DNA from: Gammaproteobacteria bacterium
GTDB taxonomy: Bacteria > Pseudomonadota > Gammaproteobacteria > SZUA-140
Reading direction: 5' to 3'
NCBI GenBank assembly: GCA_003230085.1
Contig: QIGV01000070.1
Location: 1-43,815, forward strand
Length of the DNA: 43,815 nt
Position 1 is the stretch's first letter; every line of letters begins with the position of its first letter. The translations under genes were made by a program, and so were the position numbers. This document shows, piece by piece, positions 1,253-9,031 of this stretch. The notes beneath the pieces are model-generated. The model ran no database searches, was not told the origin of the DNA, and saw only the letters and a list, made by a program, of their open reading frames with translations.

Positions 1253-2834
1253 TATTATTCCTCATCCTGATACTTACGCTGAATTTCGCATTCTCCAGAT
1301 TTTGTTGGCTACCGAAATGGCCCTCGACTGCGGCGTTCTGCTTGACGTTGAGAGGCAGAGTCAAAATTTTTACTGCAGCAACGCCCGGCTGTCTACGCAG
1401 GACATCTGTAAATGCTTCAATATTACTGTGAGCACGCAAATAGTTGCCGTCAAATGGAGAAATTTCGCCTTTAATGACAGCACGCTGAAACCGTTCCTGC
1501 TGATGATCTGCTGAGTCAGGTAAGTTGAAATCTTCCTGATCGATCTCCATGTCATCTACAGTGCTCACACTGTTATCTGTTTCAGAATCGTTATACCAGG
1601 CAATTTCATTAAGCTGAAAATTTGAATACTTGCCCAAACCATGACTTATCTTTAACAGCAGTGGCCGCAGCTGCATGCGCTGGGCATGAATAAAATCAGC
1701 TAGCCTGATCGCTGCAGAAATATCCTCTGCAGCAACCGGGATATCCGGTAAACGGTTGACAACCGTGCTGTAACGGTCCTGAGCCTGTTCGGCAAGATGA
1801 GCCGCCTGATTAGCCTGCTGCCGGTAGATCATGCCATCGCTGATATTGACCCCGCTCCACAACAGTGTGCCAACAATTAGGGCAACCCCGGCGGACTGTA
1901 ACCCTTTGCGAATTCTATGTGTAATGAAATGGCGCTGATGGTGAGGCTGGGCATAACAATTAGGGCGCGAGGATTTCTCTATCAAATATATGAAAATCCG
2001 GTCGCAAAAAGCTTCATCATTGGAATCTTTCTGCCCTAGCTTTTTCGCGATATCATCGATACGTTTAAGCTGATAATATTCCGCGTTGCGTTCAGCAAGT
2101 TGCGTTTCCAGATTTTCCAGGTAACGGCCCCCGCTGATCAAGCAGACATCCAGCTTCTCTTCCGGCGTCAGGAAATGCAATGAACCTAGATAGCGTTTTG
2201 TCTTACTGATTTCGTCGCCAACGAACCGGGCATGTTGCTCCGAATCCGGTGCCTGCACCGGAGACAGGCGACTGAATTTCAGTCGGCCATTTTCAAGATA
2301 GGATTGCCGCAGCCCGCTATTTTTATTTAGTGTCAGCAGCAACACCTTGGTTTTATTAAAGCCGAGAGTACTGGCAAGCCTTTCACTCAATAGCGGTACA
2401 GAATGGATCCCCACCAACGGCATATTATGGGACTGTAGGCATTCCATCCATTGGTCGACGATACCTGGGTTGCCGAGCGCGCTGAAAAGTACATTGTCAT
2501 CACGCCTATTTTCCTTTAAGCGTTCCAGTACCCGGCTATGACGGTAGGTTGTAGTATGAAACAGACGAGAGGAATGGCGTTTATGTAGCGCGATACGGTC
2601 GCGTCCCATAATATGGGGGATTGATTCTACCCGAAATTCTTCTTCTATTAGATCGGTCAGAATGACTACGGGAATCTGACCGACCACACTCAGATATGCA
2701 GCGAAAGCGCCCACACCTTCATCATCGGCCTGAAACGTACCGATTTCATGTATGTCGTGGCCGACTTTTTCATATACCGTCAAACCAAAGCCAGTTAAAT
2801 TTAGAATTAGCTTTGCCACGTTTTTACATCCCAA
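1236..2834 (-). CDS. PilM/PilN-like fusion protein (MshI-like)
   Basis: A 532-residue protein. Residues 1 to about 300 form a soluble cytoplasmic domain without a signal peptide. This is followed by one membrane helix (SAGVALIVGTLLWSGVNI) and a periplasmic tail of about 200 residues with a coiled-coil-like stretch (QQANQAAHLAEQAQDRYSTV). That is the layout of GspL and of MshI: an actin-like PilM-type domain fused to a PilN-type membrane domain, which anchors the assembly ATPase. The tail contains an acidic insertion (DDMEIDQEDFNLPDSADHQQE). The ATG at 2834 overlaps the end of mshG by 11 nt. I see no clear ATP-binding motif in the N-terminal half. Confidence 0.6.
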   Translation of the reverse strand: MGCKNVAKLILNLTGFGLTVYEKVGHDIHEIGTFQADDEGVGAFAAYLSVVGQIPVVILTDLIEEEFRVESIPHIMGRDRIALHKRHSSRLFHTTTYRHSRVLERLKENRRDDNVLFSALGNPGIVDQWMECLQSHNMPLVGIHSVPLLSERLASTLGFNKTKVLLLTLNKNSGLRQSYLENGRLKFSRLSPVQAPDSEQHARFVGDEISKTKRYLGSLHFLTPEEKLDVCLISGGRYLENLETQLAERNAEYYQLKRIDDIAKKLGQKDSNDEAFCDRIFIYLIEKSSRPNCYAQPHHQRHFITHRIRKGLQSAGVALIVGTLLWSGVNISDGMIYRQQANQAAHLAEQAQDRYSTVVNRLPDIPVAAEDISAAIRLADFIHAQRMQLRPLLLKISHGLGKYSNFQLNEIAWYNDSETDNSVSTVDDMEIDQEDFNLPDSADHQQERFQRAVIKGEISPFDGNYLRAHSNIEAFTDVLRRQPGVAAVKILTLPLNVKQNAAVEGHFGSQQNLENAKFSVSIRMRNNSEKVL

Positions 2835-4029
2835 TATTTCCGATAATATCGTAGATAGGTCCCAGCACGGATATCATCAGCCAGCCAAGCAATGCGCCCA
2901 ACACAACTGTCAGTGCAGGCTCTATCAACTTTTGTACCCGTTCGATTGAATCTTTTATCTCGCGATTATAAAAATAGCTGACATTGGATAATGAACTATC
3001 CAGGGCACCGGTATTCTCACCCACTCTAATCATACGTATGATTAGAGTGGGAAACAGCTCGGCTGCCTCAAAGCTGGCGCTCAATCCAATGCCATCCCCG
3101 ATCTGGAGTCGAGCCCGCTCCAGGGCACCTTCGATGACTTTATTATCGACAAGGGTTTCGCTAATCTTGATGCACTCAATGATTGGAATGCCCGTGGAAT
3201 ACATTAAGGCAAAATTATTGGCGAAGCGCGCCAATATTATTTTTCGCAGAATGGGCCCGACAAACCACAAATGCAATTTGAGATCGTCTGTCCAATAGTG
3301 AACTGATGGATTAACACGCTTCAGATATTTAATCAAAGCGACAACTACAACAGGCGTGGCAAGAATCAGATGCCAGAAGCTAGTGAAAATATCAGAGATG
3401 TAAATTAGGGCCCGGGTATGAGCCGGTAATTCATTCCCCATATTCTGGATAAATGAAACCAGCTGTGGTACCAGATAAGTCATCAGAAAAAAAATAACGC
3501 TCAGGACGACAATAGCCACAAAAGCGGGATACATCACGACCTTTTTGGTGTGTGACACTAACTCATCTTGCCATTTCAATGTTTCCGTCAGTTCAGCAAG
3601 AATTTTTGGTAGCGCGCCGCTTAGCTCCCCGGCTCTGACCAGGTGAATAAATACATGGTTAAAAACGCGGGGAAAACGCTCCATAGCCTGGGAGAGCGTT
3701 TTTCCACCCTCGATATCCGTGATCAATGCTGCGATAGTCTCGCGAAACTGCTGGTTGGTCACGCTGTCTCGCAAATCCACCAGGCCTTCCAGCATAGGAA
3801 CACCTGCCCGAATTAACTGCTCGAGATGGAAACAAAAGGTAATCAGCTCAGGCCGCCCCACGCTTCCATGCCTGAATCCGCCACGGCGCTGCCGTGCCGG
3901 ACGATGGCTGATGATGTCCAACCCCATGCACTTTAGACGCTGTTCCAGGTCTGCATCATTGTTTGCATCGATGTGCCCGACGACAGATTTACCCCTGGCA
4001 TCAATCGCCTTGTACTGAAATATGCTCAT
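2824..4029 (-). CDS. mshG: MshG-like platform protein (GspF/PilC family)
   Basis: A 401-residue polytopic inner-membrane protein, the usual length for GspF/PilC/MshG. The N-terminus (MSIFQYKAIDARGKSVVGHIDA) is the family's typical opening. Two T2SF repeats follow, the first with EQLIRAGVPMLEGLVDLRD and AMERFPRVFNHVFIHLVRAGELSG. The second has FALMYSTGIPIIECIKIS and LFPTLIIRMIRVGENTGALD. The last membrane helix is near ALTVVLGALLGWLMISVLGPI. It converts ATPase motion into fibre extrusion. Its start shares one base with the mshE stop (TGATG). A perfect 32-bp palindrome lies in the second repeat without breaking the frame. Confidence 0.9.
   Translation of the reverse strand: MSIFQYKAIDARGKSVVGHIDANNDADLEQRLKCMGLDIISHRPARQRRGGFRHGSVGRPELITFCFHLEQLIRAGVPMLEGLVDLRDSVTNQQFRETIAALITDIEGGKTLSQAMERFPRVFNHVFIHLVRAGELSGALPKILAELTETLKWQDELVSHTKKVVMYPAFVAIVVLSVIFFLMTYLVPQLVSFIQNMGNELPAHTRALIYISDIFTSFWHLILATPVVVVALIKYLKRVNPSVHYWTDDLKLHLWFVGPILRKIILARFANNFALMYSTGIPIIECIKISETLVDNKVIEGALERARLQIGDGIGLSASFEAAELFPTLIIRMIRVGENTGALDSSLSNVSYFYNREIKDSIERVQKLIEPALTVVLGALLGWLMISVLGPIYDIIGNIGM
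3020..3051. repeat. Perfect 32-bp palindrome inside mshG
   Basis: The 16-base arm CCCACTCTAATCATAC is followed at once by its exact reverse complement, with no spacer. It encodes the conserved FPTLIIRMIRVGEN stretch of the second T2SF repeat. Because of the symmetry, the opposite strand encodes nearly the same peptide, and a shadow ORF on the plus strand reads PTLIIRMIRVG as well. As DNA it could extrude a cruciform; as RNA it would form a very strong hairpin in the middle of the operon transcript. Confidence 0.97.
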
Positions 4030-5732
4030 CAGTGAATGCGTGCCGTGAGATCAATGACTCGTGAGACTTCTTCGAGTGTCGTAGAGCCATCAAGAATACG
4101 CCGCACACTGTCCTCGGCAAGCGGACAAAATCCCTTGCTTATGGCTACCTCGGTAATCTCTCTGCGCGTTGCACGCCGCGCCACCAATTCATCAAGCTCA
4201 CTGTCTATCCACAACAGCTCCATGACAGTCATGCGCCCGCGATAACCCATATGATCACAATGCTCACAACCGCATGCGCGGTAAATCACAACAAGCTCGC
4301 TGGCATCAAGGCCAAGCAGCTTACGCTCCATTTCATTGGGGCTGGATTTCTTCTTGCAATCCGGGCAGAGTTTCCGAATCAGGCGTTGGCCTATAATACC
4401 GATAATATTTCCTGCCAGAATATCGGGGACAATGCCAAGATCCAGCAAGCGGGGTATGGCGCCAATTGCAGAGTTGGTATGTACCGTAGAAAAGACCTGA
4501 TGCCCGGTCATAGCAGCCCGTAACGTCATATCGGCGGTGTCCTCGTCACGGATCTCCCCCACCAGGATGACATCCGGGTCCTGTCTCAACATGGAACGGA
4601 TACCGCTGGCAAAATCCAGCTTGACCTGTTGATTTACAGAGGTCTGACGAATCATGGCCATAGGATATTCAACCGGATCCTCCAGGGTCATGATATTGAT
4701 CGCCTCGCTGTTGATATAATTCAACATCGAATACAGAGTGGTCGTCTTACCGCTCCCGGTGGGCCCGGTTACCAAAAGCACTCCCTCAGGTCGTGCCAGC
4801 ATGAGCTTCAGAGCAATCAAAGCCTCGTCCTGCAACCCCAGTTCATCCAGCGCCACTATCCCCTTCTGGCGATCAAGGATGCGCAACACGATATTCTCGC
4901 CGTGAGTAGTCGGTTGCGCCGAGACACGGAAATCTATAGGACGTCCAAACAGGGTTAAAGAAATATGACCATCCTGGGGGGCACGGGTTTCCGCAATATT
5001 CATTCCCGAGATCACCTTGAGACGTACGGCTATTGCCGACCAGTAATTACTATGCAGACTGCGCACCTGTCGTAGGACACCGTCGATTCGATAGCGCACA
5101 CGTAAAAACCCTGCCTCGGGTTCAAAATGGATATCCGATGCACCACGCTTGACCGCATCGGCAAGTAGAGCATCCACCAGGCGCACCATTGGCTGACTGT
5201 ATTCGTCACTGTCGCTCTGGAGAGTGTTGTAATCGACCTCACCCGTTTCTATTTCTTGCAGGATGCCATCGACGGAAAGCTCAAAACCATAAAATTGATT
5301 TATCGCATTTTCAATTTCAGATTCTCCTGCCAGTACCGGTAAAATATGAATACCCTCACCAAGCAAAGCAGCCAGCTGATCAATAGCGACGACATTAAAA
5401 GTATCTGCCATGGCAACGGTAAGTCGCCTGTTAGCACTATCCAGGGACAAGGGTAGCAAGCGGTAGCGACGTGCAACATCCCTGGGAATAAGTTTGAGCA
5501 GCTCGCTATCCAGCACCACTTTGCTCAGATCAACTGATTCTTGTCCTAAGGCCTCACCCAACACATCACGCATGGTAGCTTCTGTGGTAAAGCCCAGAGC
5601 GACAATCACCTGGCCCAGCTTGTGGCCTCGCTTTTTCTGCTCAGTTAGCGCAACCCGTAACTGGTCCTGGGTCAAAATGCCCTTTTCAACCAGGATATCG
5701 CCAATGCGGCGTGGACGTGGCACTGCGCTCAT
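4029..5732 (-). CDS. mshE: MshE-like pilus/secretion extension ATPase
   Basis: A 567-residue GspE/PilB/MshE ATPase. The N-terminal MshEN domain carries the c-di-GMP-binding type repeat: RRIGDILVEKGILTQDQL ending at Q32, with a second repeat starting near KLGQVIVALGF. The motor domain shows Walker A GPTGSGKTT (about 323-331), the Asp box EDPVEY, Walker B (DPDVILVGE) and a His box (TGHQVFSTVHTN). Two CxxC pairs (C456/C459 and C489/C492) form the zinc site typical of extension, not retraction, ATPases. It drives assembly of the fibre through the MshG-like platform. The start overlaps the mshN stop by 4 nt. Confidence 0.93.
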   Translation of the reverse strand: MSAVPRPRRIGDILVEKGILTQDQLRVALTEQKKRGHKLGQVIVALGFTTEATMRDVLGEALGQESVDLSKVVLDSELLKLIPRDVARRYRLLPLSLDSANRRLTVAMADTFNVVAIDQLAALLGEGIHILPVLAGESEIENAINQFYGFELSVDGILQEIETGEVDYNTLQSDSDEYSQPMVRLVDALLADAVKRGASDIHFEPEAGFLRVRYRIDGVLRQVRSLHSNYWSAIAVRLKVISGMNIAETRAPQDGHISLTLFGRPIDFRVSAQPTTHGENIVLRILDRQKGIVALDELGLQDEALIALKLMLARPEGVLLVTGPTGSGKTTTLYSMLNYINSEAINIMTLEDPVEYPMAMIRQTSVNQQVKLDFASGIRSMLRQDPDVILVGEIRDEDTADMTLRAAMTGHQVFSTVHTNSAIGAIPRLLDLGIVPDILAGNIIGIIGQRLIRKLCPDCKKKSSPNEMERKLLGLDASELVVIYRACGCEHCDHMGYRGRMTVMELLWIDSELDELVARRATRREITEVAISKGFCPLAEDSVRRILDGSTTLEEVSRVIDLTARIH

Positions 5733-7386
5733 GGCTGCCCCGCAGAAACACTGGCGGATAATATACGAATACGTTGCCGCGCCGCTTCAATATCAAACTT
5801 CGCAACCTGACCGGCGGCCATATCGATGGCCCACTGATAGTATTGCAGCGCCATCCGGTCTTGATGGAGATGATCCAGACTCACGGCAAGATTAAATAAA
5901 TAATTGGCATTTTGCGGTGCGGCACTGTAGGCACGGAAATAGGACCGCTGAGCCTCCTCCCAGCGCAACTGTGCGGCATAGGCATTACCCAGTGCAAAAC
6001 GGAGATAAGCCGTTTCACCATGCTTGCGCAGCATCTGCTTAATCAGCGATTCATTGGCGCCTGAATCACCTGTAGACAACAGGTTTAGCAGTCCAGTTTG
6101 TGCAGTGCCATCCTTGGGATCAAGTTCCAGCTGACGTCGATACAGGGATTGCGCCTCATCATTATATCCTTGGCGAACAGCAACGGCAGCTAGTCCAAGT
6201 AGAGCATCACGGTTGCGGGGCTGTCTTGTCAGCACCTGCTGATAATAATGCCTTGCATCCAGTATTCTGTTTCCCTGATAGGCCTGATAGGCCGTAGACA
6301 ACAACTGGTAGATAGAGGGAGAATCTGTACGCCGCTGGGGCGAGGGGGATTCCGGTTTCTTCACAGGTGTCCTGGTCACTCTGTTTACTGGCTTATTTTG
6401 CGGTTTTTTTACCGTTTTAATCTGTGGTAGTGCGGCAGCCTGTACAGGTAGCATGGCCTTGTCCGAGCTGTTTGACCGTGGCGACATATTGGTTGCGAGT
6501 ATGACCTCACTATTTGTTGCATCCATCTGGCCCTCTTGCTCCGTATCAAGGGGCTCCGACTGACCAAAAGTCCCGGGCAATTGAGCGCACGCACCCAGAA
6601 ATAATAGCCGACAATCAATATCAGGATGGTGGCTACCAAAATGCCGAGCATCAGGAACTGGCGTTTTCGGGCAACACCCTCACGCTTGCGACTTGCTGCG
6701 AGAATTTTTGCCGCATCTGCGGGCGTGTTAATATCGAGCTGGAAATCCGCAGGATGCACCCGGCCAGAATCAGCAGTGACGGGTTCCCGAAATGGCTGGC
6801 TTTCCCTGCCCGACGTTAATGCCTCCCTTGGCTCATATATAGACAACGCAGGCGTTGCTGTAACGGCCTTACCATCCCCGGATAGTGCGGCTATTTTCAG
6901 CTGCTCGTTACTCGCGGATTGATCACTTGCCTGTAATAAATTTATGGTATCGACCGACGCCGCATCCACGACTTGCAGATCAGACTCGGCTATCCGACTA
7001 TCCGCAGTGATGGTTGCTTCAATTTCTGAAAAATCCAGTTCTGCTGCTAACGGCTCCTCCACAATATCTTCAGCCAATGCCTGTACGATGGGCGAGACGC
7101 CTTCGGTGATTTCACTATCCGTATTTTCAGTTTCCGAAATGCGTAGCTCTACCTCGAATGATTCGTCGGTATTGTGATCATGCACTGGTATAACGTCATC
7201 AGAAGCAGACACCATCGTTTCTGATGGTGGATCCCCGGATGTGCCAATATCTGGAAAATCTGGCGCCTCCTGATGAGCGGCCTGTTCAGGCTTGGGGCCG
7301 GATATTGGTTCTGTAGTGGACTGCCTATCCTTGACCTTGACCTTGTTCTGCTCTGCCTGTTTCAGTGCATCCATCAACAGGCTCAT
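5729..7386 (-). pseudogene. mshN: mshN-like TPR assembly protein, frameshifted
   Basis: Two ORFs in different frames together make one MshN-like protein. The upstream part (start ATG 7386) gives MSLLMDALKQAEQNKVK, a long acidic cytoplasmic linker and one membrane helix (FLMLGILVATILILIVGYYFWV), then runs into nonsense and stops at 6409. The downstream frame, open from about 6590 to 5729, gives a Lys/Pro-rich linker and TPR repeats (GNRILDARHYYQQVLTRQPRN, GYNDEAQSLYRRQLELDPKD, LRWEEAQRSYFRAYSAAPQN). The break lies just after the helix, near GTGCGTGCGCTC, where a duplicated GC dinucleotide would explain the shift. Start and stop overlaps with mshL and mshE (ATGA each) are intact. It is either a recent mutation or a sequencing error. 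Confidence 0.8.
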
Positions 7387-9031
7387 GAATCAGCTCCGTG
7401 TTTTTTTTCTAACGCCGGCTTATCAGTAGACCCAACCGCAGACTGCACCTGGGGCAAATATCGTCGATAGTCAGACAGATCGGTATCAATACTTGCATTA
7501 TGTGTAACGCGTGGACGCAAAAAAATGACCAGTTCTGATTTTTTGGTCGTATTATGGGTATAGGTAAATAACTTGCCTAAACCGGGAATCCGCATTAGAT
7601 AAGGAATACCGCTATCGTTCAAATCGACACTATCCTGAATAAGACCACCTAGCACAGCCGTCTGGCCGTTGTTCACGCGCAGGACAGATTCCATCTCCCG
7701 TACCTGGATCTGCGGTATCCGGCTTATCACATTGGCATCCGCCAGTGCCGGGTTGGGATCATTGACAAAGCCGATTACGCGCGAGATGGTCGGCCTCACG
7801 TTGAGGATGACCATTTCCTCCTCGCTGATCTGGGGCGTCACACTCATCACAAAACCTACCGGCACCGTATGCACAGTACTGGTAAAACTCGTCGTGACCA
7901 GGGTCTGGCCGCTGACGGTGTCCGCCTCTAGCGTAAAATAGACCAGATTGTCGAAAGCAAGGCGGTCTGATTGTTGATGGCCATAATTTTTGGACTGGAT
8001 AAAACCTTGACGTCACCAAATACCTGCAGCGATCGAACGGCCGCGCTGATATCTCCGTACTTCCCATCGATATTGGTAAACTCAAGCAGCGAAAAGGGTG
8101 GATCGGTCAAATTGGCGCCCAGTAATGACTGCGTAAAAGAGAGGCCATCCTTCCCGTCAGTCAACAGTGACCAGTCGACACCCAGCTGATAGTCATCGTT
8201 GAGTTCCACCTCAACCACGGTAGCTTCAATCAGTACCTGGCGCTGTGCATTGACCAGTACTTGATCGAGATAACGCTGAATTTGATCTTGCTGGCGTGAA
8301 TTGGCGCGCACAGTCAAAAGACTGCTCTCGGCATTGACTATGACCGATGAAGATTTATCAGAATCACGATCTTCTCCAAGAATGGCTTGAATATTTTGTC
8401 GTAAAGTTTCCCAGAATCGATTATTTGAGATGCTAGAGACCCGGGTCAGTGAATTATTGTTTCCACCACTGCTGATATTGCTACTTGAACCGCCTGCAGT
8501 GTTTGCAACAGCAGCAGCACCGGTCGTTGCAATCTGGGTGGCGACATTGACGGAGCTGATATTGTCGCGGGACATATTGACATAGTCCACACGGTAGCTT
8601 TGCAGGTAGGGCAGGTCAGGCGCGATTATCAGATTAGGACCATCAAGCACATAACTCAAATCCACCTGATTACTAATTCGCTTAAGAATCTGTGGAAAGG
8701 TTTGTTCCACCACATTAAGCGTCACCCGTCCTTGCACACCGGGATGGATATCCACGTTCAGTTTTGCATCCCGGGACAGGCTGAATAGCAGTTCCTGCAC
8801 AGGGACGTCAGTGACCGAAATATTGAAAGTTTCAATCTCCGGAACGGGCTGTGGCGGTGATAATATCGGGTTGTCGTTCACCGGCGCCGGTATTAATCGG
8901 GCACCTGCAGGCGCTGCCTGCAGGTGCCCTTCCCGGGATATCGGTTCTGACATCGAAGCACAGGCACCCAGCATAGATAGCAGGACAATGATCAGTGCCC
9001 GGCGCGGTATTTCTTTTACTCTCTTGGTCAC
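7383..9031 (-). pseudogene. mshL: mshL-like secretin lipoprotein, frameshifted
   Basis: An outer-membrane secretin in two frames. The first part (9031 to the stop at 7928) has a lipoprotein signal (LIIVLLSMLGAC, lipobox LGAC), an STN/N0-type domain (DVPVQELLFSLSRDAKLNVDI), a Ser/Asn-rich loop and the start of the secretin core (VLSSPKIMAINNQTALL). The frame is lost near 7951-7957. The next frame continues DNLVYFTLEAD and then the core (FVMSVTPQISEEEMVILNVRPTISR, GQTAVLGGLIQDS, IPGLGKLF, ELVIFLRPRV). Compared with other secretins (TALLKVVDN), about 7 nt are missing. Start and stop overlaps with neighbours are intact. If the shift is real, no complete pore protein is made. Confidence 0.85.
8899..8929. 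repeat. Perfect 14-bp inverted repeat inside mshL
   Basis: The arm GGGCACCTGCAGGC, a 3-nt loop (GCT) and the exact reverse complement form a GC-rich hairpin. It lies in the coding region just after the lipoprotein signal of mshL and encodes the linker HLQAAPAGAR. No T-run follows on either strand, so it is not a normal intrinsic terminator. In mRNA it could slow ribosomes or modulate expression of the downstream genes. Confidence 0.93.

Follow-up and report, generated by a model that had tools for sequence, protein, structure and literature searches.

Within the window, by which we mean the whole stretch of 43,815 nucleotides analysed, positions 3020–3051 form an exact palindrome inside a gene for an MshG-like pilus platform protein. 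We propose, with a probability of about 0.55, that it arose by quasipalindrome correction, i.e. replication template switching on a palindrome-prone peptide, and that it is a mutational product rather than a control element. The two 16-bp arms (CCCACTCTAATCATAC and GTATGATTAGAGTGGG) are 100% complementary and separated by 0 nt, as the earlier note had described, and the 16-mer half-site matches only these two arms within the window. The palindrome starts at a codon boundary in open reading frame (ORF) 2824–4029 of the minus strand and encodes PTLIIRMIRVG, with the Gly codon contributing its first two bases (protein context ...ELFPTLIIRMIRVGENTGAL...); the further statement that it codes, in frame, for a conserved stretch of the platform protein also stands. 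The T2SSF ORF is intact. The search of the own genome that had been suggested as a check places it as a single copy in the 2.9 Mb draft, allowing up to 3 mismatches, and no exact copy elsewhere was found in the GTDB genome contigs or viral contigs searched. Folded as RNA together with its flanks, the site reaches −33.8 kcal/mol (z −5.0).

The gene that carries the palindrome has a T2SSF domain, adjoins an ATPase gene with MshEN and T2SSE domains, and has an MshL-like secretin gene upstream; we therefore call it mshG-like and its surroundings an msh-type operon (Table 1). Its best NCBIfam models are GspF/PilC, with scores under those models' cut-offs, and no viral relatives of the protein were found by search. 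The mshL-like gene is split by a frameshift into 7928–9031 and 7383–7874, with the junction at about 7953, where there are 7 bases fewer than in the congener; either the secretin is broken, and the pilus would then be disabled, or the assembly is in error at this point.

Table 1. Features of the msh-type operon, with positions in the window.
Feature	Position	Strand	Remarks
Perfect zero-spacer palindrome, 16-bp arms	3020..3051	-	Codes PTLIIRMIRVG
mshG-like inner-membrane platform protein gene (GspF/PilC superfamily), 401 aa, frame intact	2824..4029	-	Pfam T2SSF (PF00482), E=5.8e-46
mshE-like pilus ATPase gene	4029..5732	-	MshEN and T2SSE domains
mshL-like secretin gene, 5' part, frame broken near 7953	7928..9031	-	
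Second perfect coding hairpin within the 5' part of mshL (arms 14 bp, loop 3 nt)	8899..8929	-	3' arm rewritten relative to congener

The chance expectation first attached to the palindrome, about once in 100 windows of a million bases, is wrong, since 4^-16 corresponds to one per 4.3 Gb, and it also overlooks the pairs fixed by the peptide. About 11 of the 16 pairs follow from PTLIIRMIRVG itself: random synonymous recodings with the genome's own codon usage average 11.2/16, and 13% of them reach at least 13/16. The probability of all 16 pairs given the peptide is ~2.0e-4. With the right arm and the peptide fixed, the free codon choices of the left arm match with a P of about 3.7e-4, and the left arm draws on less common codons, among them CTA (9% of Leu) and ATA (19% of Ile). 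Once the peptide is allowed for, the palindrome is therefore still unusual, though far less so than the raw figure implies. Similar or larger palindromes and hairpins are present in the own and related genomes, some of them within coding sequence; elsewhere in the own and congener genomes there are perfect palindromes without a spacer that have arms of 22 and 24 bp, and these lie at gene ends or in intergenic DNA.

Within the genus we compare one other genome, G001, whose protein is 80% identical. Its corresponding codons read CCGCCCCTGATCATCCGCATGATCAGGGTGGG, a near-palindrome (CCCTGATCAT-CCGC-ATGATCAGGG) with 13/16 pairs, 10-bp perfect arms, and a 4-nt loop; that a relative should have an imperfect inverted repeat at the corresponding position is what quasipalindrome correction predicts. 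All eight differences between the two genomes at the site lie in pairs that are Watson–Crick in the own genome, and the three pairs that are mismatched in the congener are Watson–Crick there too. Two pairs differ on both sides (own A-T vs G-C, and own T-A vs C-G), and these double differences arise at third codon positions: CTA/ATT in the own genome against CTG/ATC, and ACT/AGA against CCC/AGG, the latter with a Thr/Pro difference as well. As for the remaining pair changes, one C.C of the congener is A-T in the own genome, and two mismatches are mended from one side. The nearest outgroup, L004 (60% identity), already reads CCC AC in this part of the left arm, which makes the polarity of the Pro/Thr difference uncertain. 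At one column pair, the own genome, the congener, and L004 have three different Watson–Crick pairs.

At 8/32, divergence between the two genomes at the site is in line with the 27% found across the gene, and 3020–3051 is therefore not conserved as a sequence; the synonymous-site conservation that was to be looked for is absent. The arms differ from those of the congener at 5 and 3 positions, with no excess over the gene average, and for this reason no single clustered event is visible in mshG. Among 81 further mshG homologues (at most 60% identity), pairing and RNA folding are at the level that codon usage predicts for each (mean z −0.19), with P<0.05 on the codon null in 5% of them; the codon-null z is −3.1 for the own site and −2.5 for the congener, the fold of which (−19.1 kcal/mol) has a P of 0.01 on its own codon null. 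The genus has Ile at a position where 78 of the 81 homologues have Val, and this substitution creates inner pairs. The earlier note had held that relatives which code for this peptide with unrelated codons and without the symmetry would speak against a function for the palindrome; all relatives are of this kind except the congener, which keeps 13 of the 16 pairs.

Perfect coding hairpins, defined by perfect arms of at least 12 bp and loops of 0–8, were counted in stretches from seven genomes of the bacterial family, which together contain 1.5 Mb of coding sequence (ORFs 200 aa or longer, with trimmed ends), against a null in which synonymous codons were permuted. The count was 15 observed vs 1.5 expected, an approximately tenfold excess (Poisson P about 1e-10), and 5 vs 0.2 for arms of at least 14 bp; some counted ORFs may be spurious, e.g. 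that at L127:11164, which probably sits at a dinB gene end and not inside a real gene. An excess of coding hairpins over what codon choice yields is also what template switching predicts. The case just named, L127:11164–11211 of the congener, is a 48-bp perfect zero-spacer palindrome that overlaps the 3' end of a dinB-like (DNA polymerase IV) gene. Confinement of the excess to the genus was considered, since the msh neighbourhoods of ~79 other genomes contain only one hairpin with arms of at least 12 bp, and then rejected, as G005, G009, and G010 of the same family have such hairpins.

Most of the coding hairpins examined are not conserved. Four other long ones in the own genome, in mshL (8899–8929) and in genes for an RND-type transporter, a flavoprotein oxidoreductase, and a solute-binding protein (the names of these last three come from their sequences and not from a family search), retain just 5–9 pairs in the congener. 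Differences from the congener are concentrated in one arm in mshL (1 vs 7), more clearly than in mshG, and in the flavoprotein gene (2 vs 6), in tests that are weak for each individual hairpin (P 0.05–0.5); one arm near-identical to the congener's and the other not is the pattern expected had one arm been copied over the other. The mshL hairpin lies in the same operon as the mshG palindrome, 5.9 kb from it; the congener has the same 5' arm and a different 3' arm, and the hairpin is likely to be a template-switch scar that altered the encoded residues from ALPR to AGAR. Close to the beginning of an RND-type transporter gene, L144:7940–7976 is a perfect hairpin with 16-bp arms and a 5-nt loop, the 5' arm of which codes the conserved DSIIIA, and the 3' arm of which (SNDDGI) is unlike the congener and other relatives. 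Between genes of the own genome, inverted repeats with the common sequence CGGGGTCAGACTTCAGTTT and arms of up to 45 bp (L117:13095–13186, L122:994–1065, and L122:13354–13402) look like REP/RAYT-type mobile palindromes.

The course of events that we propose starts from the peptide LIIRMIR, which can be coded almost as its own reverse complement and would thereby have given rise to an imperfect inverted repeat (a quasipalindrome), probably in the ancestor of the genus and still present in the congener. A replicating polymerase that briefly copied one hairpin arm instead of the normal template would have turned the other arm into its exact complement, and one or more such switches in this lineage could have produced the 16 perfect pairs. 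As to the cost, the changes would have been synonymous for the most part, with no more than one mild replacement (Pro/Thr), so that the perfect sequence is probably neutral or nearly so. That template switching made the mshG palindrome, and which arm was the template, we infer from sequence comparison; the partial upkeep of the hairpin in the congener would also be explained by selection for the hairpin. Quasipalindrome correction by template switching is an established mechanism in Escherichia coli (PMC7202029), repeated switching is stated to be common in proteobacteria (PMC8604942), and template switching can mimic compensatory change (PMC8794818).

The alternative to which we give most weight, while regarding it as unlikely, is chance: ordinary synonymous drift would have completed the palindrome on a near-palindromic peptide, with no special mutation or selection. 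The pairs supplied by the peptide alone, and the 13% of recodings that reach at least 13 pairs, are in its favour, as are the lower GC at third codon positions in this genome (0.52) than in the congener (0.75) and the fact that the palindrome was picked as the extreme of a large scan. Against this, all 16 pairs remain improbable given the peptide, coding hairpins in general are about tenfold over the synonymous null, and a second long hairpin is present in the same operon.

Rather more doubtful is an mRNA hairpin specific to the genus: formed in the msh operon transcript, it would slow ribosomes or RNA polymerase, or shield an mRNA end, and would in this way set the ratio of upstream to downstream genes. 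The strong fold at the own site, the unusually good fold of the congener, the two double differences that preserve pairing, and the three different Watson–Crick pairs at one column pair would all fit such a hairpin; the 81 other homologues without a signal, the lack of synonymous conservation, the missing U-run, and the similar but non-conserved hairpins in unrelated genes do not. A hairpin in coding sequence would, moreover, be melted by translating ribosomes. As a structure conserved at the family level, the hairpin was rejected, only the congener departing from the codon null; the suggestion in the earlier note of a hairpin that sets pilus gene ratios thus finds no support outside the genus and has a small residual probability within it. 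We consider it slightly more doubtful still that the hairpin has been under selection in the genus, tuning pilus subunit ratios from inside the coding sequence, as the pairing in the two genomes (16/16 and 13/16) and the pairing-preserving double changes might be read to say. Its proposed action as an attenuator finds no support, and an intrinsic terminator or attenuator, which would require a U-run after the stem, was rejected: the terminator scan gave no terminator-like match at 3020–3051, and the sequence downstream of the stem, TGAGAATACC, has no T-run.

A role for the DNA itself, as an operator, another kind of protein-binding site, or a cruciform, is very improbable. The dyad symmetry is perfect and a promoter-like match overlaps the site on the opposite strand, at chance level for the region (3 found vs 2.4 expected); on the other side, the site lies about 1 kb inside the gene, and the half-site is not conserved as a sequence in the congener. 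An operator should recur, yet this sequence is unique in its own genome and absent from the GTDB and viral contigs searched, and the operator proposed earlier was rejected. With no sequence conservation and with the homologues at the codon null, there is therefore no conserved operator or attenuator. Least probable of all is an assembly or amplification artefact, which the draft state of the genome (241 contigs, 81% complete) and the frameshift in the neighbouring mshL might suggest, but the frame and the conserved peptide continue through both arms, and the separate assembly of the congener has a near-palindrome at the same codons.

If quasipalindrome correction is the right reading, the mshG palindrome is a fresh instance of an already known mutational phenomenon, namely a bacterial example of a palindrome-prone peptide driven to a perfect DNA palindrome in a conserved gene stretch. 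The roughly tenfold excess of coding hairpins in the family points to a measurable imprint of template switching on protein-coding genes, and the case cautions that a striking coding palindrome need not be an operator.

The closest parallels are the E. coli thyA hotspot and lacZ quasipalindrome reporters (PMC7202029), in which an imperfect inverted repeat in a gene is perfected by copying one arm, the congener here representing the imperfect form; unlike those mutations, the mshG case is deduced from a species comparison and was not seen as a mutation, and both of its arms have changed since the split from the congener. In yeast, homogenised inverted-repeat arms have changed proteins, dozens of protein genes being altered (PMC8604942). 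Perfect coding inverted repeats, a second arm unlike that of relatives, and occasional amino-acid changes are common to that study and ours, and one gene listed there has 16-bp arms; the mshG case differs in being bacterial, in having zero spacer, and in drawing its polarity from one close relative only. Mitochondrial genes of Nematomorpha contain long palindromes, i.e. perfect inverted repeats in conserved coding sequence, with arms that change together and paired changes that preserve perfection (PMC6649704), but theirs are numerous and reach 284 bp, whereas mshG offers a single 32-bp case on a modest background. Finally, the template-switch RNA hairpins of PMC8794818 concern structural RNAs and mshG is a protein gene, and the likeness between them is that pairing-preserving double changes can come from one copying event.
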